From a virus: a stretch of DNA of 64,000 nt. The notes under the pieces are model-generated. The model searched no databases. It was given only the letters and a program-made list of their open reading frames with translations, and had not been told where the DNA came from. Positions 2,289 through 16,459 of this stretch are shown piece after piece (within the stretch, counting starts at the first letter, position 1; each line of letters starts with the position of its first letter). A program made the translations under genes and the position numbers. The DNA is taken from positions 1 through 64,000 of IMG/VR virus record IMGVR_UViG_3300025159_000134; one strand, written 5' to 3'.

Positions 2289-3070
2289 AAAAAAAATATA
2301 AACTTATAAAAAAATATCCAGGTAGTCCTGAATTAGGTTATATACTTGAACAACTTAAAAATCAAAAAAATCAAGATGATAATTATTATTATCATGGACT
2401 TTGGTTAAACCCTTCAAAATATCCAGAATTTTGGGAAGAAATTGTTGAAAAAGATTATGAGATATTAAGTTTTAAATATGGTAACGGATGTTCATATTAT
2501 CATACATTAAGAAATAATAATTATTATGTACAATCTGATCAAAGTATTAAATCATCAACTAATTATACATTAAAACAACAACTTAATGATTTAGAAAATA
2601 ATAGATGTGTTATACATTCGGTCCAAAGATTATCAGATGGTGAAGTATTTACTATTGGTGATAATACGCATTTAACTGGAAAAATTAAATATTTTCAAAT
2701 TTGTAGAAAATCAAATTTATTAATAGTTGGATTTAATGATGGTGAAGATATTTTAGAATTTGTAGAACATTTTAAACAACCATTATTCACAACAGAAGAT
2801 GGTGTTGATATATTTGAAGGTGATAAATATTATCCTGTAGGTTTTTCTAAAGAAATACCTGGAAGTTGTGAATGGTATGTAGTTGAAGGAGAACATAAAT
2901 ATTTATTTAAATATTCTAAATATATATTTTCAACAAAAGAAAAAGCTGAAGAATATATTTTAATGAATAAACCTTGTTTAAGTATTACAGATATATATAA
3001 TCTGAATCTTTGGAGTCGTAATGGTACAGTAATGACTGCTATAAAAAAATTAGTAAAAAGTAAACTATGA
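2285..3070 (+). CDS. Hypothetical protein with a repeated 'EDGVDIFEGD'-type segment
   Basis: A 261-residue soluble protein. It has a KYKLIKKYPGSPELG start, a YPEFWEEI segment (about residues 46-54), and a later LFTTEDGVDIFEGDKYYPV segment (about 165-185). I recall similar segments in uncharacterised Bacteroidota phage proteins, but no biochemical function is known to me. It overlaps both neighbours by ATGA and forms a tight three-gene run (1857-3522). Confidence 0.6.
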   Translation: MKKKYKLIKKYPGSPELGYILEQLKNQKNQDDNYYYHGLWLNPSKYPEFWEEIVEKDYEILSFKYGNGCSYYHTLRNNNYYVQSDQSIKSSTNYTLKQQLNDLENNRCVIHSVQRLSDGEVFTIGDNTHLTGKIKYFQICRKSNLLIVGFNDGEDILEFVEHFKQPLFTTEDGVDIFEGDKYYPVGFSKEIPGSCEWYVVEGEHKYLFKYSKYIFSTKEKAEEYILMNKPCLSITDIYNLNLWSRNGTVMTAIKKLVKSKL

Positions 3071-3522
3071 AATTATATGTAGACTTTCCTATTCCAACTA
3101 CAGTTAGAGAGTTTTTATTAACTTTTCTAACTAAAAGTACATCAGGATATGTTTGTTATGGTGATGCTACTTATTTTGATAAAGAATGTAAACTGATACA
3201 TTGTGAACCAAATAAATATAGAGGATTTGATGATATTTTAAAAGTTACTCGAACTTATTTTCCAGACATTGATGAAAAACAATTAATGCATCATTTAGTT
3301 TTATTAAAATATAATAATAAATATAGTCCTAATTTTGGTATTTGTCATGATGCTGGAATATTAAGATATATTTTATATACAGAATCACAAAATGTTGATA
3401 GTTTTAGAAAATGTATACCAGAAAACTCTAATTATAGTTGGTATGATTTATTTCTTTTATTAGATATTCATAATGTACAAGAAATGAAGAAATATATTCA
3501 AACCCATAAAGAAGAAAATTAA
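3067..3522 (+). CDS. Hypothetical protein of a repeated small-protein family (RxFDD family)
   Basis: This 151-residue protein contains YRGFDDILKVTRTYFPD at about residues 51-67, then a helical stretch and a Cys near 98. The same layout recurs in the 13540-13998 protein (YRSLDDIIKLSKFYFPK) and, more weakly, in the 9200-9583 and 9624-10094 proteins inside a helicase intron. I therefore treat these as a dispersed paralogous family. Function unknown. Confidence 0.6.
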   Translation: MKLYVDFPIPTTVREFLLTFLTKSTSGYVCYGDATYFDKECKLIHCEPNKYRGFDDILKVTRTYFPDIDEKQLMHHLVLLKYNNKYSPNFGICHDAGILRYILYTESQNVDSFRKCIPENSNYSWYDLFLLLDIHNVQEMKKYIQTHKEEN

Positions 3523-4783: not shown

Positions 4784-5005
4784 TAAAGCGGAGTAGACAA
4801 TAAACAATTGCTTGAATTGCTGGAAATCTTAATATTAAGTTAAAGACAATCAGCAGCGAAGCCTACAGAGTAGGAACGTTCAGAGACTACCTGAGCTATA
4901 GCAATATAGCTTAATAACAGGAATTAGCTAATAGTAGTGTATTAGTGAAAAAGCGAGCAAAATTTTACTTATAATAAAAATTATTATAAAAAAGTTGCTT
5001 AAAAA

Positions 5006-5037
5006 TTAGGATAATAACTAGAAATAGCTTACCTTTG
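5006..5037 (+). promoter_or_regulatory. Bacteroidota-type promoter candidate for the polB-intron endonuclease
   Basis: TACCTTTG (5030-5037) fits the Bacteroides -7 consensus TANNTTTG. TTAG (5006-5009) is one base off the -33 TTTG, and exactly 20 bp separate the two boxes. The endonuclease ATG is 23 nt downstream of the -7 box. The same 20-bp spacing occurs before the other intron endonuclease at 10510. Confidence 0.5.
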
Positions 5038-5060
5038 TATATAATTTAAAATATACAAAT

Positions 5061-5723
5061 ATGAAGCTTAATAGAAAAAGAGATTTAAATAATTGTGGTA
5101 TATATGGTATAAGAAACCTTATAAACAATAAAATTTATATTGGTAAATCAGTTAATATATATGAAAGAATAAGGTTTCATATTAATAAACTAAATAAAAA
5201 AGACAAAAATGACAATATTCATTTAATTAATTCTTGGCATAAATATGGTCGAGATAATTTTGAATATATTATTTTAGAATCTTTACCAAAAAATGATAAT
5301 ATATTAAAAGAAAAAGAATTATACTGGATTTTAAAATTAAAAAGTAACCAAAGAGAATTTGGTTATAATTTAAGACTGGATTCAGACACAAAATGTATAT
5401 TATCAGAAGAAACTAAACAAAAAATGTCAGTGAGTAAGATTAAAATGTACTCTAATCCAGAATATGATAATATGAAACATTCTCATAAGTATTGGAAAAA
5501 TAATCCATTGGCTAAAAAAGAAATGGCTAAAAAAGTTTCTGAAAAAAAACATAAATTTAAAATACAACAATTTGACAAAGATAACATTTTTATTAAAGAA
5601 TGGCTTTCTGTCAAAGAAATTATTAAATCTAATCCTAATTATAAATGGCAAAATATATATTCAGTATGTAATGGTTATAAACCAACTATATATGGATATA
5701 TATGGTGTAAAATTAAGATATAG
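5061..5723 (+). CDS. GIY-YIG homing endonuclease (intron A)
   Basis: This 220-residue protein has an N-terminal GIY-YIG nuclease domain: GIY at residues 13-15, IYIG at 25-28, an Arg-bearing helix (ERIRFH) and a Glu-bearing KEKELYWI segment near 90. A NUMOD3-like segment follows (LSEETKQKMSVSKIK, about 114-128). The C-terminal part is NUMOD1/IENR-like DNA-binding sequence (FDKDNIFIKEWLSVKEI and VCNGYKPTIYGYIW). It would cut intronless polB alleles to spread the intron. The TAG stop lies in the intron S element, so the coding sequence and the ribozyme share bases. Confidence 0.88.
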   Translation: MKLNRKRDLNNCGIYGIRNLINNKIYIGKSVNIYERIRFHINKLNKKDKNDNIHLINSWHKYGRDNFEYIILESLPKNDNILKEKELYWILKLKSNQREFGYNLRLDSDTKCILSEETKQKMSVSKIKMYSNPEYDNMKHSHKYWKNNPLAKKEMAKKVSEKKHKFKIQQFDKDNIFIKEWLSVKEIIKSNPNYKWQNIYSVCNGYKPTIYGYIWCKIKI

Positions 5724-5764
5724 TCCGATACTCTAAGAAATTAGAGATTAACACAGTAGTTATG

Positions 5765-6809
5765 CGCAAGCTACTACCCACATTTATCTTTTACAAATAA
5801 ATTACATCCAGAACATATTCCTGAAAAAATATTTAATCAAATTTACGAAGGTTTTTATATAGAACGAAAGAACTATGATAAGAAAGACCCAAGAAATTAT
5901 GTATTAAAAATTATTTTAAATGGAAGTTATGGACTGTCTAAAGATAAATATGCATTTTTATATGATCCTAAGTGGCAATTAGCAATTTGTATTAATGGTC
6001 AATTAATATTAACATTATTAACAGAAAAAGTATTTGAAAAATGTAAAAAAGATGTTCAAATTATTTTTGAAAATACAGATGGAGCTATGTATCGTATACA
6101 TCGTTCTGATTTAGAATTACTTAATGAAGCTTGTAAAGAAGTTGAAAAAATAGTTAATATTCCTTTAGAAACACAAATTTGTGAAAAAATTATTGCTAAA
6201 GATGTTAATAATTATATTAATATTATTTCATCTGATAATGTAAAATTTAAAGGTATATTTGAAATTGATAGAGATTATCATAAAAATCATAGTAAGCGTA
6301 TTGTAGCATTATCATTAGCGAATTATTTTATTAATAATATTAATGTAGAAGATACAATATTAAATCATCTAAATAATAAAATTAATTATTCTTTTGGAGA
6401 AGTTTATGGTATTTATGATTTTTGTATTGGTTCTAAAATGAAACAAAATAATATATTATATAAACGTGAGTTAAAAGATTTTAAATTTGTAGATACTGAA
6501 TTAAATAAAATGAATCGTTATTATGTATCAAATGAAGGTGTAGAGTTAATTAAAAAACTTCCACCATTAGATAAAAATAATTTAACTGATACAGATAAAT
6601 ATAAAATTAAATTTGATTCAAATCAATTAAATATATTTGATGTTATAAAAGATAATGTTACAATAGAACCTGAAGAAAGAGAAACTAATATTGAAGCAGG
6701 TTGGAAATGTACATTATTTAATACATTTAAAGAACAAGATGATTATGATCTTAATTATCAATATTATATAGAAGAATGTTACAAAGTAATTAATTCATTA
6801 ACACTATAA
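5765..6809 (+). CDS. polB: Family B DNA polymerase, exon 2 (palm/polymerase domain)
   Basis: This continues the split polymerase from residue F313 to 660. Motif A is completed at the junction (D312-F-A-S-Y-Y-P318). Motif B is the Lys-containing helix ending LKIILNGSYG (about 360-369). Motif C is N416-T-D-G (IIFENTDG), where most family members have D-T-D. D312 and D418 are the expected metal ligands. An internal ATG at 6087 is not the true start. At 660 residues the enzyme is short for a family B polymerase. The next small gene starts 2 nt after its stop. Confidence 0.88.
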
Positions 6810-7802: not shown

Positions 7803-7967
7803 ATGAGTTTATTTAGTAGAGTCTACGAAAACCTGATTGATCGTAGAGAAAGATTATTATCAGGAAAAATAAATTGTATACCTTGGGGTTTACCAAGGTT
7901 TGAAAATGAATTACCTGGTATTGAACGAGGTAAATATTACTTATTAACAGCGAATAGTAAAGTGGGT
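7803..7967 (+). CDS. dnaB: DnaB-type (SF4) replicative helicase, exon 1
   Basis: This is the first 55 codons of a 366-residue RecA-fold helicase, ending in ...TANSKVG. The exon stops exactly between the Gly and Lys codons of Walker A. Joining 7967 to 10109 gives ANSKVG-KT. There is no DnaB N-terminal domain, so the protein is the ATPase core alone, as in other phage SF4 helicases. Reading through into the intron gives a 61-residue dead-end ending at TAG 7986-7988. Confidence 0.82.
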
Positions 7968-8067
7968 AGATTTTGCCCCTCTATATAGTAATATATAGTT
8001 GAATTCCGAATCCTAGAAATAGGGGTTAATTAAAAAATTAGCTAACGGGGAAACTCTTTTAAACAAT

Positions 8068-8595
8068 ATGGAACATAATAAAGATGAAATAAAAGTTGTA
8101 AATAATCCACCTTATGATAAAGGTTTTAGAAACTGGCAAATACATGCAGAGTTTAAATATAGAAATGCTAAACTAAGATTATGTGATACTATAAGTGGAT
8201 GTGGTCCAGTACAAATGTATCAATATACTTCTACATATAGTTTTAATGAAGAAATAAAAGATGAATTTATTTTTTTATTTAAAACTATAATGGAAGACGC
8301 TATTAAAGCAGATATATCAAGAAATAATACTTCAAAATGGTTCCATCGTGCTCCTACTGCAATAATGTTTGTACAAGGTTTATATAATGAAGACTATTAT
8401 AATAATGATAATGATGACTATGAATATGATGAAGAAAATTTAAGTCCAAATTCAATTAATTTTATTAATATGATGACTGAATTAGGTTTTGAACATAAAA
8501 TTTATCAAAATATAGCTCATGGATTAGATACACGTGATATACAAGGATTTTTTTATCTTGATGTAAAAGAAAAATATATAAAAAAACAAATATAA
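8068..8595 (+). CDS. Intron B ORF 1: hypothetical protein
   Basis: A 175-residue protein in the enlarged P5 loop of the helicase intron. It has aromatic, mixed alpha/beta-like sequence and a strongly acidic Asn/Asp/Tyr-rich stretch near residues 110-125 (YYNNDNDDYEYDEEN). I see no GIY-YIG, LAGLIDADG, HNH or other nuclease motif. Its TAA overlaps the next ATG by one base, so it behaves like part of an ordinary phage operon rather than a lone intron gene. No family recognised. Confidence 0.6.
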   Translation: MEHNKDEIKVVNNPPYDKGFRNWQIHAEFKYRNAKLRLCDTISGCGPVQMYQYTSTYSFNEEIKDEFIFLFKTIMEDAIKADISRNNTSKWFHRAPTAIMFVQGLYNEDYYNNDNDDYEYDEENLSPNSINFINMMTELGFEHKIYQNIAHGLDTRDIQGFFYLDVKEKYIKKQI

Positions 8596-8894
8596 TGAAA
8601 AAAACAACAACAGCTTGTTGTGCTTTATGTCAAATTAATGATGTAGATAATAAAACATCATTACATGATTTAAATAGAGCTATACAAATATTAGCTAGAC
8701 AAAAAGAAGCTAATACAGAAGTAGGTATTACTACTGGAAATGGACAAACTGCAGTTTTTGTTATTGTATCTCCAGGAGAATTTGTATTAGAATCTAATCT
8801 TAAAATATTAGGTTTTACAAACATACATGAATTTGAACGTAGAAAAGGTTATCCAACAATAGGTGATTTAAAAATGTATATTAAAAATCTGTAA
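8595..8894 (+). CDS. Intron B ORF 2: hypothetical protein with N-terminal CCALC motif
   Basis: A 99-residue protein beginning MKKTTTACCALCQ. The compact globular part contains GQTAVFVIVSPGEFVLESNLKILGF in a beta-alpha pattern. It starts within the previous stop (TAATG) and ends 2 nt before the next gene. It also lies in the P5 insertion. The Cys cluster might bind metal, but there is no second pair, and I can assign no function. Confidence 0.58.
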   Translation: MKKTTTACCALCQINDVDNKTSLHDLNRAIQILARQKEANTEVGITTGNGQTAVFVIVSPGEFVLESNLKILGFTNIHEFERRKGYPTIGDLKMYIKNL

Positions 8895-8896
8895 TT

Positions 8897-9157
8897 ATGA
8901 ATAAAAAAGACAATCCCGTGCCGTCACTTGATAATAAATTCACGAAAGAAGATATGTGTCAATTTGGACTTTTTCTTGGTAATAATATCAAAAAAAATAA
9001 AAATAAAGATATAAATCAACTTTTAAATGAATTTTTAGAAAACGGTGTAGAGACTAACAAGGAACAACCTGAATATTGTAACTGTAAACATGAAAATACA
9101 AATAATTTATATATTAAAGAAATTTGTAGAAAATGTGAAAAAGAATATTTAGATTAG
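8897..9157 (+). CDS. Intron B ORF 3: small Cys-rich protein overlapping the ribozyme core
   Basis: An 86-residue ORF. The N-terminal half is helical (FTKEDMCQFGLFLGNNI, then DINQLLNEFLE). The C-terminal half has a zinc-ribbon-like layout, CNCKH...C-x2-C (CRKCEKEYLD). The ATG is 12 nt before the intron Q element, and the TAG stop is 3 nt before S, so the frame covers Q, P6, R and most of P8. The protein looks natural, but the ribozyme constraint makes its reality less certain than that of its neighbours. Confidence 0.5.
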   Translation: MNKKDNPVPSLDNKFTKEDMCQFGLFLGNNIKKNKNKDINQLLNEFLENGVETNKEQPEYCNCKHENTNNLYIKEICRKCEKEYLD

Positions 9158-9199
9158 GTTGATGAGATAGTCCGAACTATAAATATAAATTTAATATAT

Positions 9200-9583
9200 A
9201 TGAATTTAGATGAAACTAAAAAAGAATTAGATAATTTAACTAATGCTATGTATTTTAATAAATTATTATTTAAATCAAAAAAAGATGATTATTATCAAAG
9301 ACGATCATTTGATGATTTATTTTTATATTTTAGAAAATATAAAGTATCTGAAAAAATGTTATTACAAGCATTGTATGAATCAGGTTTTTGTGCTAGAGTA
9401 TGTAGTAGTTTAAAAAAAGTAGTATTTTTTAAAGCTTATATTCCAGATAATAAATTTTGGTATACTTTTATATCTAAAGGTACTTATGGATATATAGATT
9501 TAAATTGTACTGAAAATACTAAATATACAAGAGAATATTTAGATAACTTATTTGATAAAATATATATTAATACTAAATTATAG
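9200..9583 (+). CDS. Intron B ORF 4: RxFDD-family hypothetical protein
   Basis: A 127-residue protein located after the S element, in the peripheral P9 region. It contains RRSFDDLFLYFRKY (about residues 34-47) followed by a helix and SSLKKVVFFKAY. The first part matches the pattern in the proteins at 3067 and 13540. The KKELDN start and the later LKKVVF segment match the next ORF, suggesting a local duplication. Ends in TAG. Function unknown. Confidence 0.58.
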   Translation: MNLDETKKELDNLTNAMYFNKLLFKSKKDDYYQRRSFDDLFLYFRKYKVSEKMLLQALYESGFCARVCSSLKKVVFFKAYIPDNKFWYTFISKGTYGYIDLNCTENTKYTREYLDNLFDKIYINTKL

Positions 9584-9623
9584 AGTTAAACAGAAATGAT
9601 TTAACTATTTAAATAAGAAATAT

Positions 9624-10094
9624 ATGAATAAATATAAATTAAAAAAAGAATTAGATAATATTGAAAAAGTTTTATTAGAATATTTTCAACCTTTAAAAGG
9701 TACACTATATGGTTTAAAGATTTTAGATAATGATAGTCGTAAAATTAAATCTAATATATACAGAGATTATAAGTATTATAACGATTATTATACAGGAGTC
9801 ACTATTAAATATCTTAAAGAATATTTATTTAATAATAAATATAAACAAAATATGATTATTTATGTTTTAATGAAGTTATTAAAAGAATATAAAATACAAA
9901 CATTACCTTGTGCAAATATTAGAAAAATTGTATTTGAAAATGTTAATGATCAACATTATAGTAGAAAATTTAATGATATTAAAAATCATACATATTTAAC
10001 AGATTTTAATAAAAGAGAATATTTAAGTAATGATGATATACAATATATTAAATTCTTTAAAATATATAATATTATTTATAAACAACTTATTTAA
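9624..10094 (+). CDS. Intron B ORF 5: RxFDD-related hypothetical protein
   Basis: A 156-residue, Lys/Tyr/Asn-rich protein beginning MNKYKLKKELDN, as in the preceding ORF. It contains YLKEYLFNNKYKQN, a helix, and ANIRKIVFENV in the same order. It ends 14 nt before the intron 3' splice site. Between the two ORFs (9584-9606) is a 7-bp hairpin (AGTTAAA / TTTAACT) that may belong to a P9 extension of the intron. Function unknown. Confidence 0.55.
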   Translation: MNKYKLKKELDNIEKVLLEYFQPLKGTLYGLKILDNDSRKIKSNIYRDYKYYNDYYTGVTIKYLKEYLFNNKYKQNMIIYVLMKLLKEYKIQTLPCANIRKIVFENVNDQHYSRKFNDIKNHTYLTDFNKREYLSNDDIQYIKFFKIYNIIYKQLI

Positions 10095-10108
10095 ATATAA
10101 CAAAATTG

Positions 10109-10420
10109 AAAACTCAAATAGCTGATTGGCTATTTTTGTATAATACTATTCAACAAGTAATAGATAAGGATTTAAATATTAAACTTAAAATCTTCTACTT
10201 TAGTTTAGAAATGAGTAAAGAAGAGAAAATGTTAGCAGCATTCTCTAATATCTTATATGTAAAAGAAGGTATTAGAATAGCTCCTAAAGATTTAAGGAGT
10301 ACAAAAGCTGATACTATTTTAAGTGAAGAATATTTAAATATTATATCAAAATATCAACCATATTTTTCTAAAATTGAAGAAATTGTAGAATTTATAGATG
10401 ATATTAGAAACCCAACTGGT
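10109..10420 (+). CDS. dnaB: DnaB-type helicase, exon 2
   Basis: This exon has 104 codons (residues 56-159 of the spliced protein). It opens with the Lys-Thr of Walker A (KTQIADW). It contains IKIFYFSLEMSKEEKM-like sequence (FYFSLEMS), the H1a segment typical of DnaB/gp41 helicases. It ends at ...RNPTG, the conserved NPTG-IYK loop, where the second helicase intron is inserted. The TTG-started ORF beginning at 10106 is an artefact of the intron 3' end. Confidence 0.82.
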
Positions 10421-10462
10421 AGACTAAATAATTAAATAAATTATAAAATAATCATCAATAAA

Positions 10463-10494
10463 TTTGGATTTGTAATAAAAATTTTATATCTTTG
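10463..10494 (+). promoter_or_regulatory. Bacteroidota-type promoter for the dnaB-intron endonuclease
   Basis: TTTG (10463-10466), a 20-bp spacer, and TATCTTTG (10487-10494) match the Bacteroides primary sigma factor consensus TTTG / TANNTTTG. The ATG of the endonuclease is at 10510. This would let the endonuclease be transcribed independently of the helicase operon. Confidence 0.6.
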
Positions 10495-10509
10495 TAAAAA
10501 AATATACAT

Positions 10510-11286
10510 ATGATAGGAATTTATAAAATTACAAGTCCAAATGGTAGAATATATATTGGACAGAGTATTAATATTGAAGAAAGATTAAAACAGTATCAAA
10601 ATTTAAAAAGAGTTAAAGTTCATAAAAAACTTTATAGATCATTTTTAAAATATGGTATTAATAATCATTTATTTTCAATAGAAAAAGAATGTTTAAGAAA
10701 AGATCTTAATAAAGAAGAAAGATATTATCAAGAATATTATGATTGTATTAATCAAGGTTTAAATTGTTTTTATACATCAACAGATGAAAAAACTAGAATA
10801 AATTCAGAAGAATATAATTTACAAATAAGTGAAACTTTGAAAAGAAGGTATAATTTAAAAGAAATTATAAATACAAGAAAAGGAAGTGGTAAAAAATTTA
10901 ATATATTTAATTACAAAGGAGATATATTACATAGTAATGTAGATATAGAACAATGTATAAAATTATTAAATCTTTCTAATAGATCTGTTTTAAATAATAT
11001 ATTAAGAAATAATAGATTTCTTAGTCAAAAACAATATATAATTATACCAATTAAAAATGATTATAAAGATTTTATTTATAATTGTATAAATATAAATAAT
11101 GGAAGTGATATTCCTATTTATCAAATTTTTGATAAAAATAATATTATAAAATGTTCAATTAGTTCTAAATTTAGAATAATTAAAAAACTTTTAAATTCAG
11201 AAAATTATATTTATTACAGTGAAAAAAATAAATCTTATTATACATTTATTGGATTAATAAATGCCGTCTTAGAGAGAAATTTCTAA
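10510..11286 (+). CDS. GIY-YIG homing endonuclease (intron C)
   Basis: A 258-residue protein with GIYKI at residues 3-7 and RIYIGQS at about 15-21. These are followed by the helix INIEERLKQY with the catalytic Arg region, and a KEERYYQEYY segment with the expected Glu near 79. The C-terminal part (about 130-255) is lysine/asparagine-rich and probably binds DNA, with a repeated FDKNN / FNYKG beta pattern like NUMOD1/IENR units. Its last codons (INAV) coincide with the P10 strand and internal guide sequence of the intron. A Bacteroidota-type promoter lies just upstream. Confidence 0.85.
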   Translation: MIGIYKITSPNGRIYIGQSINIEERLKQYQNLKRVKVHKKLYRSFLKYGINNHLFSIEKECLRKDLNKEERYYQEYYDCINQGLNCFYTSTDEKTRINSEEYNLQISETLKRRYNLKEIINTRKGSGKKFNIFNYKGDILHSNVDIEQCIKLLNLSNRSVLNNILRNNRFLSQKQYIIIPIKNDYKDFIYNCININNGSDIPIYQIFDKNNIIKCSISSKFRIIKKLLNSENYIYYSEKNKSYYTFIGLINAVLERNF

Positions 11287-11392
11287 GATAATTAGAGAGC
11301 AAATACGGTGAAGGGTGTGATTCCTAATACCGTGGTAACTATATTAATTAAAAAGAATATAGAACCGTAACGCATAGATATTGAACCATAAT

Positions 11393-11416
11393 AGAGAGAC
11401 TTTAGTCTCTTTTTTT
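11393..11416 (+). terminator. Intrinsic terminator-like hairpin inside intron C
   Basis: AGAGAC (11395-11400), loop TTTA, and GTCTCT (11405-11410) form a perfect stem, extended by a G.U and an A-U pair. Seven Ts follow (11410-11416). It lies in the P8 region, between the two P7 strands. It could end the endonuclease transcript, and it might also attenuate transcription into helicase exon 3. Confidence 0.6.
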
Positions 11417-11545
11417 ATGAATATAATATATCCACGAGTGTTCTCCATCTAAACAAGTAATGTTGTAGATGAAAATGTATGCTGGACTTACACGAATAAG
11501 AAGTATAAGAACTAAGGGATAAAAAACCTTTAGGATAACAAAACG

Positions 11546-12169
11546 ATTTACAAATTTGTAAGAGAATATGCATATGCAAATGGTACACAACATAAGAAAA
11601 CAATTGATATAAATGGTCATCTTACAGAAATAGATGATTATTATGAAGCTAATAACCCTGAAGAATATGTAATGATTATAATTGACCATGTCAGTTTAAT
11701 TACTACAGAAACACAGAATGGTGTTCAAATGTCTTTACATCAATCTATTGTTAAATTATCATCTGATTATCTTATTAAGCTTAGAAATAAATATGGATAT
11801 ATACCAGTAGTAATACAACAACAAGCATCTGCTCAAGAATCTGTTGAAAATATGAAAGTAGGTAGATTAAAACCTACAATGGATGGATTAGGAGATTGTA
11901 AACTTACACAAAGAGATGCAAATGTAATATTAGGATTGTTTAGTCCTTTTAGACATGAAATTAAAGAATATTATGGATATGATGTTACCTTTTTTAAAGA
12001 TAATATCAGATTCTTAGAAATTCTAGGTGGTAGAGAAGGTGGTGGTGGTACAACATGTCCATTATATTTTGATGGTGCAGTAAATTATTTTACAGAATTA
12101 CCAAAACCTACAGATACACTTAATTTAAATAAATTTGTAAACTTTATTAATAATATTGTGAGAAAATAA
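11546..12169 (+). CDS. dnaB: DnaB-type helicase, exon 3
   Basis: This gives residues 160-366 of the spliced helicase, starting IYKFVREYAY directly after NPTG. Walker B is VMIIIDHVSLI with D206. The H3-type segment is IPVVIQQQASAQE. The C-terminal part (GLGDCKLTQRDANVILGL) fits the DNA-binding loop and arginine-finger end of SF4 helicases. An internal ATG at 11672 is not the natural start, because the frame is open and conserved back to the intron boundary. The next gene begins 5 nt later. Confidence 0.82.
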   Translation: MYKFVREYAYANGTQHKKTIDINGHLTEIDDYYEANNPEEYVMIIIDHVSLITTETQNGVQMSLHQSIVKLSSDYLIKLRNKYGYIPVVIQQQASAQESVENMKVGRLKPTMDGLGDCKLTQRDANVILGLFSPFRHEIKEYYGYDVTFFKDNIRFLEILGGREGGGGTTCPLYFDGAVNYFTELPKPTDTLNLNKFVNFINNIVRK

Positions 12170-13137: not shown

Positions 13138-13547
13138 ATAAGCAATTAAAGAAAATATATTTAGCAATTCCATATACAGGTATGGTTGAAAGTAGTTTTG
13201 AACAAGCTAATAAAGCATCTGTATTAATTCTAAATAAAGGATTAAATGTATTTAGTCCTATTACTCATTCACACCCATTAACATTATTAGAAGGTTATAC
13301 AGTACCTCATACATGGGATTATTGGCAACATATTGATTATCAATTTGTTGATTGGTGTGATGAAATTTGGGTATTAATACCTAAAGAAGGTATAGAGTAT
13401 TTAAAAAACTCTACAGGTGTAAAAGCTGAAATTAAATATGGTTTAAAACATAATAAACATATTAAATTTATCCAAATTATAGCTGATACAATTTATTTTA
13501 ATGGAAAAGTAAAATGCTTAGATATAATAAATAAAAGTGATGACTAA
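13134..13547 (+). CDS. Nucleoside 2-deoxyribosyltransferase-like protein (DUF1937/DUF4406 type)
   Basis: A 137-residue protein with a Rossmann-like pattern: KKIYLAIPYTG start, AS...LNKGLNVFSPITHSHP, DYQFVDWCDEIWVL and STGVKAEIKYGLKH. This is the layout of the nucleoside 2-deoxyribosyltransferase superfamily as seen in phage DUF1937/DUF4406 proteins. The DWCDE-type acidic residues and the S-x-G-V-x-x-E segment correspond to the active-site region. The likely substrates are deoxynucleosides or nucleotides. Its actual reaction is unproven. Confidence 0.7.
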   Translation: MNKQLKKIYLAIPYTGMVESSFEQANKASVLILNKGLNVFSPITHSHPLTLLEGYTVPHTWDYWQHIDYQFVDWCDEIWVLIPKEGIEYLKNSTGVKAEIKYGLKHNKHIKFIQIIADTIYFNGKVKCLDIINKSDD

Positions 13548-13998
13548 AAAAGATGTGACAACAATAAAAGATTTAGAAATCTATTATAATAAAATAAGAA
13601 AAATTAGATTTAAAGATGATGTTATAATAAAATCTATTGAAGATATATTATATTATACAATAGATTTAAAACAAGATCCAATAGAAACATATTTTGTTAG
13701 AGGTGGATTACAATGTGATTATGATAGATATCGTTCATTAGATGATATTATTAAATTATCTAAATTTTATTTTCCTAAATCTAGAATTAAAGATATATTA
13801 TTTGAAATTATAAAATATGAAGCAGGGCGAACAAATGGTGCTGGATTTATGTACAATTATTGTCCTGATATTCGTAAATATAATTTTAGAGGTAGTGCAT
13901 ATTGGCAAACATTTAAAGCAGAATGTAAATATTTAACAATGGATACTCAAAACTTTCATAATTTAGATGTAACATTTGATGAAATTATAAATAATTAA
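13540..13998 (+). CDS. RxFDD-family hypothetical protein
   Basis: I start at ATG 13540 (152 residues) rather than the GTG three bases earlier. It overlaps the previous gene by 8 bases. Residues about 65-80 (YRSLDDIIKLSKFYFPK) align with the protein at 3067, and a following helix and aromatic stretch (YEAGRTNGAGFMYNYCPD) continues the similarity in layout. Function unknown. The short gap 13999-14030 is purine-rich (GATGATGATGAA) and probably serves as the ribosome entry region of the next gene. Confidence 0.6.
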   Translation: MTKKDVTTIKDLEIYYNKIRKIRFKDDVIIKSIEDILYYTIDLKQDPIETYFVRGGLQCDYDRYRSLDDIIKLSKFYFPKSRIKDILFEIIKYEAGRTNGAGFMYNYCPDIRKYNFRGSAYWQTFKAECKYLTMDTQNFHNLDVTFDEIINN

Positions 13999-14030
13999 TA
14001 AGAGGATGGTAGAGGGCGGATGATGATGAA

Positions 14031-14798
14031 ATGATAGAATTACCAATTAATAAAGAAAAAGCTTCCAGAGTTAATCCAAAAACAATGGTTATATTTAGTC
14101 AGCCTAAGATGGGAAAAACCACAGTAGTAGCTGGATTAGATAACTGTTTAATAATTGACTTAGAAAAAGGTGGTGATTTTGTGGATACATTACGTTTTGA
14201 TGTAATTAGACACGCAGAAAAAGAAGAAAAACTACCAATTGTTATATTAAAACAATTGATAGAAAAAATAAAGGAAGAGAATAAAAAAAGAGGTCAGTAT
14301 GTTTATAATTTTATAGCAATAGATACTGTAACTGCTCTTGAAGATATTGTCTTACCTTTAGCAAATAAGATGTATAGAGATACTCCAATGGGACGTAATT
14401 GGGTAGGAGATGATGTTACCACTCTACCTAATGGTGCAGGATATAGATTTACAAGAAATGCTCTTTCAACAGTTCTAACAGAATTAGAAGATATTTGTGA
14501 TACCTTAATTATATTAGGTCATACAAAAGATAAAATGATTGAAAAAGAAGGTAAAGAGATGAATGAAAGAGGATTAGACCTTACTGGTAAAATGGCTTCA
14601 ATCGTTTGTTCTCAAGTAGATGCTATAGGTTATCTTTATAGAGATGAAAAAGAAACAATTATTAATTTCCAAGCTTCTGAGAGTTTATTATGTGGAGCAC
14701 GTAGTGAACATCTTAAAGGTGCAGAAATAGTAGTAGCAGTCTCTGATGGATCAGGAGACATTAAAATAGATTGGTCTAAAATATTTATTAATAAATAA
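14031..14798 (+). CDS. Sak4-like / RecA-fold recombination ATPase
   Basis: A 255-residue P-loop ATPase. Walker A is SQPKMGKTT (about residues 23-31), and an acidic sensor LIIDLEKGGD follows at about 40-50. Walker B is YNFIAIDTVTAL (about 90-101). Downstream are conserved GNRNWVGDD-like (MGRNWVGDD) and ILGHTKDK motifs. This is the pattern of phage Sak4-type single-strand annealing ATPases, which are commonly encoded beside SSB. Here SSB follows after 18 nt. Expected role: annealing or strand exchange during phage replication. Confidence 0.75.
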   Translation: MIELPINKEKASRVNPKTMVIFSQPKMGKTTVVAGLDNCLIIDLEKGGDFVDTLRFDVIRHAEKEEKLPIVILKQLIEKIKEENKKRGQYVYNFIAIDTVTALEDIVLPLANKMYRDTPMGRNWVGDDVTTLPNGAGYRFTRNALSTVLTELEDICDTLIILGHTKDKMIEKEGKEMNERGLDLTGKMASIVCSQVDAIGYLYRDEKETIINFQASESLLCGARSEHLKGAEIVVAVSDGSGDIKIDWSKIFINK

Positions 14799-14816
14799 TT
14801 AAAATAAAAATAAGAT

Positions 14817-15386
14817 ATGTTTGATTTAAACGAAAAGAAATTTGGTGGTACTGTTATATTTAATAATGGTCAAGGAGGATTAGTGAAGGATGTAACAATT
14901 TCTGTTGAAAAAAGAGGAGCAGGTGAACCAGATACATATCCAAATTATAAGTTGGTTATAGAAGATAATACAGGTGGTAAAATCAATCAAGGATTTTATT
15001 ATCCTAAAAATGATCCTCAAAAATCAGCTGAAGAAAATGATAAAAAAGCAGTAAGGGAAGTGAGTAGAATTGTACATCTTGCTAAAGCAGTAATGGGTGC
15101 AAATTATGAATTTCCAAAAGTAGAAAGTGCAACAGAAGCATTTGATACGTTATTTAAATTAGTACGCGATAATGCTGGAGCTAAAAAATACAATGTATTT
15201 GTAACATATGGTACAGCAGGTTATGCAAGTAAATTTATGGGATTAAGATATTTTGATTTCATTGAAGATGCTGCAACACCAGTAACAAGACTTCGTGTAA
15301 AACCAGGTGATTTATTAGAGAGAGTAGAACAAGATGTTCCTTCTGATGGATTAGATGGTGGTACCAAGTCTGAATCTTGGGTATAA
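14817..15386 (+). CDS. ssb: Single-stranded DNA-binding protein (crAss-like type)
   Basis: A 189-residue protein with beta-rich, OB-like N-terminal sequence (GGTVIFNNGQGGLVKDVTISVEKR, YPNYKLVIEDNTGG) and an Asp/Glu-containing C-terminal tail. Position directly after the Sak4-like ATPase and before the primase supports an SSB role, and similar proteins are annotated as SSB in crAss-like phages. A terminator follows, so it ends a transcription unit. Assignment is by layout and recollection of the family, not by a diagnostic motif. Confidence 0.6.
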   Translation: MFDLNEKKFGGTVIFNNGQGGLVKDVTISVEKRGAGEPDTYPNYKLVIEDNTGGKINQGFYYPKNDPQKSAEENDKKAVREVSRIVHLAKAVMGANYEFPKVESATEAFDTLFKLVRDNAGAKKYNVFVTYGTAGYASKFMGLRYFDFIEDAATPVTRLRVKPGDLLERVEQDVPSDGLDGGTKSESWV

Positions 15387-15393
15387 TATTAAT

Positions 15394-15420
15394 AAGGGGA
15401 TAGAAATATCCCCTTTTTTT
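15394..15420 (+). terminator. Intrinsic terminator after ssb
   Basis: AAGGGGATA (15394-15402), a GAAA tetraloop, and TATCCCCTT (15407-15415) form a perfect 9-bp stem followed by a T run to about 15420. The primase ATG lies 11 nt beyond the T run, so transcription of the primase may depend on read-through or on an unrecognised promoter. Confidence 0.85.
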
Positions 15421-15430
15421 ACATTAAATT

Positions 15431-16459
15431 ATGACAATAGATTTAAATAAAAAATTAGTAACAAAAGCTGGATTACTAAATTATATTGATGATATATCAG
15501 TATATAGATTTTATACAGGACAAGATGTAGAATTAAAAGTAATTACAAATTCTCCATTACGTGAAGATAACAATCCTTCATTTGGATATTTTATTGGTGA
15601 AAGTGGTGAAATTTGTTTTAAAGATTGGTTGATTGGAGCTGGAGATTTTGTTAAATTTGTACAGTTAAAATTTAAACTAAATTATTTTGAAGCATTAAGT
15701 AAAATCGCAATAGATTTTAATATTGATGAACATTTTATAGTGAGATCTATAGAAAAAAGTGAAGGTGTTTATAATCCTAATTTATTTAGAAATAAGGAAG
15801 ATGTTTTAAATAATAATAAACCTTTAGAATTAGGAAAAAAACGAAGAAATTGGGTAGCTCAAGATTATGCTTTTTGGTTACAATATGGTATAGATGAAGC
15901 TACATTATTAAAATATAAAGTTGAACCAATTGAATATATTTTTATTAATGGTAATCCTATTTATGTACATAAATATGCTTATGCATTTATTGAACATAAA
16001 GATGGAAAAGAAACATATAAAATATATCAACCTTATAATACAGATTTTAAATGGTTAAATAACCATAATGATTCTGTATGGCAAGGGTGGGAACAATTAC
16101 CAGAAAAAGGAAAAACATTAATAATTACTAAATCTTTAAAAGATGTAATGGCTATTGTAAATAACACTACTAATATTTCTGCAGTAGCATTACAATCAGA
16201 ATCAGTACATCCTAAAGAATATATTATCCAAGAATTAAAAGATAGATTTGAAAATATATTCCTTCTATATGATAATGATTTTGATAAAGAAACTAATTGG
16301 GGACGACAATTTGGTAAATCTTTATCAGAAACATTTGATTTATTACAAGTTGAAATAGATGAAAAATATCAATCTAAAGATTTCAGTGATTTAATTAAAA
16401 ATTTAGGAAAAAACAAAGCTGTAAATATATTAAAAAATATGATTGCAGTACCATTTTAA
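15431..16459 (+). CDS. DnaG-type primase (TOPRIM)
   Basis: A 342-residue protein. The N-terminal part (NSPLREDNNPSFGYFIG, then FKDWLIGAGDFVKFVQ at about 55-75) resembles the CHC2-like domain of DnaG family primases, but the Cys/His zinc ligands are not obvious. The C-terminal TOPRIM core includes KTLIITKSLKDVMAI (about 228-242), the usual acidic-motif strand with Lys in place of Glu, and FLLYDNDFD (about 276-284) with the acidic DxD-like metal site. It would synthesise RNA primers for the DnaB-type helicase and PolB encoded upstream. Confidence 0.72.
   Translation: MTIDLNKKLVTKAGLLNYIDDISVYRFYTGQDVELKVITNSPLREDNNPSFGYFIGESGEICFKDWLIGAGDFVKFVQLKFKLNYFEALSKIAIDFNIDEHFIVRSIEKSEGVYNPNLFRNKEDVLNNNKPLELGKKRRNWVAQDYAFWLQYGIDEATLLKYKVEPIEYIFINGNPIYVHKYAYAFIEHKDGKETYKIYQPYNTDFKWLNNHNDSVWQGWEQLPEKGKTLIITKSLKDVMAIVNNTTNISAVALQSESVHPKEYIIQELKDRFENIFLLYDNDFDKETNWGRQFGKSLSETFDLLQVEIDEKYQSKDFSDLIKNLGKNKAVNILKNMIAVPF

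Follow-up and report, generated by a model that had tools for sequence, protein, structure and literature searches.

Group I introns of bacteria have been reviewed as elements that either lack an open reading frame (ORF) or carry a homing endonuclease (PMC3984707). In the td intron of phage T4, which encodes the homing endonuclease I-TevI, the ORF enters the catalytic core, where its translation interferes with splicing (PMC2988022). Introns in fungal and algal organelles can encode rps3, aminotransferases and N-acetyltransferases (PMC8393795), and IStrons use a group I ribozyme to protect the host gene from an inserted element (PMC4227781). Among phages, intron-rich crAss-like genomes have group I introns in core replication genes, detected via signature (mainly endonuclease) domains (PMC7886860), and the group I introns of Bastillevirinae have long loops, which are often matched only in part by Rfam and which contain homing nucleases (PMC11878797). 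A search of open-access text turned up no description of multi-gene, non-nuclease cargo in a phage group I intron.

The window analyzed here, a stretch of 64,000 nucleotides, is part of a 69,240-base IMG/VR virus record (IMGVR_UViG_3300025159_000134) and contains such a candidate in a helicase gene. Like td, its intron has GGGU before the 5′ splice site and a P9 of similar sequence (...TGGTGACA...), and the segments ACGGGGAA and AGACAATCCCGTGC are identical in the two introns. Unlike td, which has one homing endonuclease, the window intron has five non-nuclease ORFs distributed over several loops, one of which spans P4′ to P8, and the td stretch between the P7 5′ strand and the P3 3′ strand is missing. 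The carriage of non-endonuclease proteins is shared with the organellar introns, but the family described here is a phage one, with a multi-gene, swappable set. The position in a core replication gene is shared with the crAss-like phage introns, although a search by signature domains would miss introns of this type; the long loops resemble those of the Bastillevirinae, except that those of the window intron contain no homing nuclease; and a ribozyme that would protect its host gene is shared with IStrons, but a transposase is absent.

The interrupted gene matches DnaB-type helicases of crAss-like phages. Its nearest annotated counterparts are all from such phages (up to 55% identity, with phi14:2 over residues 56–350), and the match is continuous in cr108_1 and crAss001 but falls at two places in Cellulophaga phage phi14:2. 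The intron host, which has a crAss-like DnaB helicase, is a Crassvirales phage. We note that the helicase of phi14:2 (L020, NC_021806.1), a cultured relative with the intron at 13150–15765, is annotated without its P-loop exon, which sits in the hypothetical gene g024. In the window, the helicase has three exons, all on the + strand, because a second intron interrupts the same gene. Exon 1 (7803–7967, 55 residues, ending ...ANSKVG), placed by tblastn against relatives and crAss-like helicases, is followed by intron 1 (7968–10108, group IA, td-like), delimited by conserved splice sites and core covariation, by exon 2 (10109–10420), whose first four bases, AAAA (10109–10112), are the P10 partner, by the second intron (10421–11545, junction NPTG|IYKF) and by exon 3 (11546–12169). 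The second intron contains a GIY-YIG ORF (10510–11286) that matches Pfam PF01541 above the cut-off. Intron 1 is inserted between G55 and K56 of the Walker A motif. The first-pass annotation had described an intron of 2.14 kb whose removal restores Walker A; 7968–10108 measures 2141 nt, and the join indeed reads ...LLTANSKVG|KTQIADWLF.... It follows from this anatomy that helicase expression would depend on excision of the intron.

A td-like group I core had been read in the intron, and its positions hold: the core covaries, and the splice sites are conserved among relatives. The four helices named at that stage, P1 (GGGU/GCCC), P10 (UUUU/AAAA), P4 (CGGG/CCCG) and P7 (GACUA/UAGUC), are all present in the window, and P2, P3, P5, P6, P8 and P9 could be added to them. 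On the + strand, P1 pairs GGGU (7964–7967) with GCCC (7975–7978), with a U·G pair at the 5′ splice site, and encloses the UUUU of P10 (7971–7974). P2 is the hairpin CTATATA-GTAA-TATATAG (7981–7998), and the 5′ strand of P3, UUCC (8004–8007), pairs with 9061–9064. The P element (8045–8059) comprises the 5′ strands of P4 (8045–8049) and P5 (8056–8059); the Q element (8906–8924) comprises the 3′ strands of P5 (8906–8909) and P4 (8915–8919) and the 5′ strand of P6 (8921–8924); the R element (9042–9070) comprises the 3′ strand of P6 (9042–9045), the 5′ strand of P7 (GACUA, 9052–9056), the 3′ strand of P3 (9061–9064) and the 5′ strand of P8 (9065–9070); and the S element (9156–9172) comprises the 3′ strands of P8 (9156–9161) and P7 (UAGUC, 9168–9172). 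P9, assigned by eye, pairs CTATA (9177–9181) with TATAG (9579–9583) across a loop containing ORF4 and has the short form CTATATGGTGACATATAG in relatives, where the P9.1-like hairpin that follows (GTTAAACAGAAATGATTTAAC, 9585–9605) is found as the same element. The intron thus contains the P3–P8 and P4–P6 domains of a td-like group IA intron, with the P7 guanosine-site helix.

Covariation backs P2, P3, P5, P6, P7 and P8. The six inner pairs of P2 (7982–7987 with 7992–7997) are all changed on both sides among relatives and are 100% paired; three of the four P3 pairs show both-sided changes (98% paired), P3 being unreadable in several introns. P5 shows compensatory change, the fifth pair of P7 is A-U or G-C across the alignments and U-A in L030, and P8 covaries, although it is not formed in the aligned columns of L001, L007 and L054. 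P4 neither supports nor contradicts the core because it never varies. In concatenated cores, 24 pairs from 27 introns are 97.5% paired; in a 13-intron set including P2 and the P3 pseudoknot, 34 pairs are 98.6% paired, against 29–44% in slid controls. These fractions of paired cells favor the unslid structure, because anchors picked by hand defined the core pieces and part of the structure was read from the same sequences. The both-sided base changes, found in 16 of the 34 pairs of the 13-intron set (0/500 shuffles), are the stronger part of the evidence. The expected splice-site features are also in place, namely U7967·G7975, G10108 and UUUU/AAAA; the U and the 3′ G are kept among relatives, and P1 is present wherever the 5′ end is readable, some of them with a partial relaxation of GGGU. 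Also recurrent among relatives are the 5′ splice site (GGU.A...UUUGCCCC), the 3′ end (AACA...G|AAAAC) and, in the core, the segments ACGGGGAA, GACAAUCCCGUGCCGUCA, GGUGUAGAGACUAACAA and GAGAUAGUCCGAACUAU.

The covariance check suggested in the first-pass annotation gave a divided answer. Rfam RF00028 has no match in the window (even at E up to 10) or in six relatives. In the T4 control, however, the proven introns td (40.3 bits) and nrdB (35.7 bits) also score below the gathering score of 50, although with significant E-values, so the Rfam miss is weak evidence; a test was therefore built from relatives, and in that test the core covaries.

The cargo is real coding sequence. Coding density on the + strand of the intron is 0.908, compared with 0.049 on average and at most 0.237 in 300 dinucleotide shuffles, and ORF coverage of the opposite strand is 9%. 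The arrangement previously described is confirmed, with ORF1 and ORF2 in L5, ORF3 across the core, and ORF4 and ORF5 after S. None of the five is recognizable as a nuclease: Pfam gives 0 nuclease matches at E ≤ 1, PHROGs yields sub-threshold noise only (ORF3 against a ‘restriction endonuclease’ family, E = 0.063), and there is no GIY-YIG domain within 7968–10108. The window intron has no homing endonuclease gene of its own.

ORF1 (8068–8595, +, 175 residues) has a stop codon overlapping the start of ORF2. No clear homologue was found in phages or by a pattern search of IMG/VR, and the one weak match (28%) is in L035/L049; its coding status therefore rests on length and spacing. Membership in the gene family of the P1–P4 slot was ruled out (hhalign probability 0.4%). 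ORF2 (8595–8894, +, 99 residues) is a conserved cargo gene, 56–76% identical to 12 homologues, from which it differs most frequently at third positions. Its model is a small alpha/beta fold (pLDDT 83.7), for which the fold search returned weak GNAT-like matches only (best Foldseek E 9e-3, TM about 0.55); there was no Foldseek match at E ≤ 0.001 and no GNAT match in Pfam. ORF4 (9200–9583, +, 127 residues) lies inside the P9 loop, its TAG stop belongs to the P9 3′ strand, and it had no match in the fold search; its family is shared with free-standing phage genes. ORF5 (9624–10094, +, 156 residues), in the P9.x region, has a homologue in L001 and a weak kinship (18–21%) to the ORF4 family.

ORF3 (8897–9157, +, 86 residues) is the oddest part of the intron. 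It reads through P5′, P4′, P6, P7, P3′ and P8, ends with TAG in the 3′ strand of P8, and its tail, coded by L8, carries CxC...CxxC; several ORF3-type tails in relatives likewise contain Cys pairs. Q and R segments were found without regard to frame in 32 sequence-distinct introns, which are related and thus not independent counts, and the distance between the two is a multiple of three in 32 of 32, with 15 distinct lengths and an L6 insert ranging from 27 to 198 nt. The ORF3 frame, kept in all 32, is open in 31, and 20 of the 32 share a single stop position, within the 3′ strand of P8 and 11 nt ahead of S. By chance, a 45-codon stretch would be open in about 0.6% of cases at this composition. 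The L6 inserts mostly fall into unrelated sequences, and the pairs that are related have 58–85% amino-acid identity, whereas the core bases encode the fixed peptides DNPVPSLD and NGVETNKEQP. The shortest L6 (27 nt) occurs in two introns of the family located outside helicases (L029, 11033–11116; L045, 4945–5190), where the ORF3 frame (MNKKDNPVPSLEKHGVETNNE...) is still kept.

Relatives were collected by a helicase search (loci L001–L019) and by a core-motif search (34 stretches). Over exon 3, the helicases of L001–L013 are 67–86% identical to that of the window, and 12 of the 13 have the interruption at G55/K56, the fragment L006 showing its 3′ side; in L002, L003, L005, L007 and L011, the 5′ side was placed separately because another intron lies just upstream. 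The helicase tree groups 19 rows in a supported clade (97/96), every one of them with the G55 insertion (some with the 3′ side only), and phi14:2, L044 and L050, outside this clade, have the insertion too. The intronless alleles that the first-pass annotation had asked for are represented by outgroups with an uninterrupted helicase.

Seventeen complete introns range from 1157 to 3574 nt, are 83–95% coding and hold 2–6 ORFs in several loops, the slots being the P1–P4 segment, L5, L6/L8 and the region after S. Among 74 cargo proteins, LAGLIDADG is the only clear family, present in three introns, in L8 in L001 and L007 and inside the S element in L010. Because relatives carry LAGLIDADG genes in the same intron, the window has the homing-gene-free version of an intron able to carry one. 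In L010 (2600–3265), the LAGLIDADG ORF splits the S element (GATAGT|...|CCGAACTAT) between short complementary flanks; it may represent an intron, or a homing gene, that nests within the core of the ribozyme. With L001, the nearest relative (its helicase is 86% identical), the window has ORF2 (73%) and ORF5 (38%) in common; L001 has a LAGLIDADG gene in L8 and is without ORF4. Across this clade of crAss-like phages the intron is conserved as a trait, and its cargo turns over heavily.

The same genes also occur outside the intron. ORF2, sought in 12 records, has one copy in each of five, inside the intron in four and outside it in L013, where it is an ordinary gene 3′ of one resembling thymidylate synthase. 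In L079, the helicase is uninterrupted, and homologues of ORF2 and ORF4 are free-standing in the replication block. Window genes 3067–3522 and 13537–13998 are free-standing members of a fast-evolving family, to which the family of ORF4 shows a relationship (probability 92%, E 5.6e-7). Modules recur in different loops: L5 of L041 resembles L6 of L001 (2e-11), and the L8 module of L036 resembles L5 of L032 (1e-6) and also L5 of L033; L012, L024 and L034 have a common L5 module and different L6 modules. L002 and L007, with nearly identical helicases, are 82% identical in the P1–P4 and L5 slots, are at random level in L6 and lack a match in L8, and L007 and L001 are 86% identical in L8 as against 11% in the P1–P4 slot. 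A mosaic of this kind would be expected if exchange occurs in the core; the direction of gene movement, like the mechanism of recombination, we infer. Co-conversion with adjacent GIY-YIG introns was rejected as a universal drive, several relatives being without such a neighbor.

Introns of this family also interrupt DNA polymerase B in other phages (L033, L035/L049 and L054), between residues about 244–258 and 294 of the L005 enzyme. The polymerase B of the window is split at another position by an intron-like insert (4797–5765) with a GIY-YIG ORF (5061–5723), to which an ORF of L009 is 87% identical. In helicases, a separate intron is found at S52|K53, nine bases 5′ of intron 1, in L002, L005, L007, L011 and L031; between it and intron 1 there remains a mini-exon of 9 nt (AAAGTGGGT or a close variant). 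In L005, L007 and L011 this additional intron has a GIY-YIG match; in L002 its length is just about 300 nt. Another P-loop intron is located at V54 in the gut phages cr111, cr112 and PhiCrAssBcn14. The helicase P-loop attracts introns. In bacterial genomes, a search for the family with an 18-base pattern gave 18 matches in 257 Gb, close to the number expected by chance (an estimated ~15). In addition, tmRNA genes with tag peptides were found on the phages L013 (1360–1735) and L051 (708–1040), and none was found in the window.

The covariation, the splice sites, the coding ORFs and the lack of any nuclease family bear out the earlier proposal of a group I intron with a gene cassette in place of a homing endonuclease. 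Judged from sequence, 7968–10108 is probably a functional group IA intron that has become a cargo carrier, remodeled by recombination and fixed within a clade in the helicase P-loop. The least credible alternative, which we consider highly improbable, is that there is no intron and that an inserted operon splits the helicase into two polypeptides or leaves a dead gene; the intron reading does come from sequence, and the reading frame of exon 1 runs on as a short ORF that terminates within the insert, yet compensatory changes occur in six helices, P1/P10 and the 3′ G are conserved, and both exons are conserved in all relatives, in which an essential Walker A would be split. Homing genes can be lost from group I introns after fixation, as is established, and decay of a mobile intron, with its loops filled by passenger ORFs of no benefit, would fit the LAGLIDADG genes that L001, L007 and L010 have in the same intron and the window has not. 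Decay predicts broken and shrinking ORFs, however, whereas each intron is 83–95% coding, different intact genes occupy different loops, the ORF3 frame is kept in 32 of 32 and ORF2 homologues remain 56–76% identical to the window copy; we regard it as unlikely.

Two further alternatives concern ORF3. As the sole ORF common to every member, spanning the core like some intron-encoded proteins and with Cys pairs in several tails, it might be a new mobility factor or maturase, by which the intron would home through an unrecognized protein of its own. An enzyme or RNA-binding protein would be expected to retain a conserved domain, but most L6 and L8 modules show no homology from one intron to another, and the frame in L029 encodes only about 27 residues, making this reading as doubtful as that of decay. 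It is less likely still that the frame reflects short-range RNA constraint or recent common descent instead of translation: the constant peptides are dictated by core bases and the introns are related, but the 15 L6 lengths are all multiples of three in mostly unrelated inserts, an open 45-codon stretch is expected by chance at about 0.6%, and related L6 pairs retain 58–85% identity.

On the cargo-carrier reading, the ribozyme would excise itself and restore the helicase, as the conserved structure and splice sites suggest. The peripheral loops (the P1–P4 segment, L5, L6/L8 and P9 onwards) may offer docking slots to ordinary small phage genes, whose expression would come from the precursor before splicing or from the excised intron. 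The mosaics point to gain, loss and swapping of cargo by homologous recombination, for which short invariant core segments could be the anchors, aided at times by homing, whether the mobile element is a LAGLIDADG gene within the intron itself or a GIY-YIG intron located between a few and a few hundred bases from it. ORF3 would be translated through the core, its fixed, core-coded peptides joining variable modules. Because its overlap with the core is larger than in td and universal, and because ORF3 usually terminates immediately ahead of the P7 3′ strand, translation should compete with ribozyme folding and splicing. The persistence of the intron without a homing gene may be explained by Walker A, which probably only an exact deletion would spare, and useful cargo is probably a second reason.

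More tentatively, though it could well be right, the intron may be a gene-shuffling platform, in which the core serves both as a protein linker, in frame, and as an anchor for recombination; new small proteins and sets of genes would then be built loop by loop while splicing keeps an essential gene intact. An intron family holds up to six ordinary small genes in mostly coding sequence, and the same gene is intron cargo in one phage and part of a normal gene cluster in another; a domesticated, cargo-carrying intron thereby becomes directly testable. Unusually, too, the same piece of RNA would act as catalytic core and as mRNA throughout a whole family. Searches via endonucleases or Rfam miss such introns, an example being the phi14:2 helicase, annotated without its P-loop exon. 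In these phages, the intron seems to act as a gene carrier, and as more than a parasite alone.
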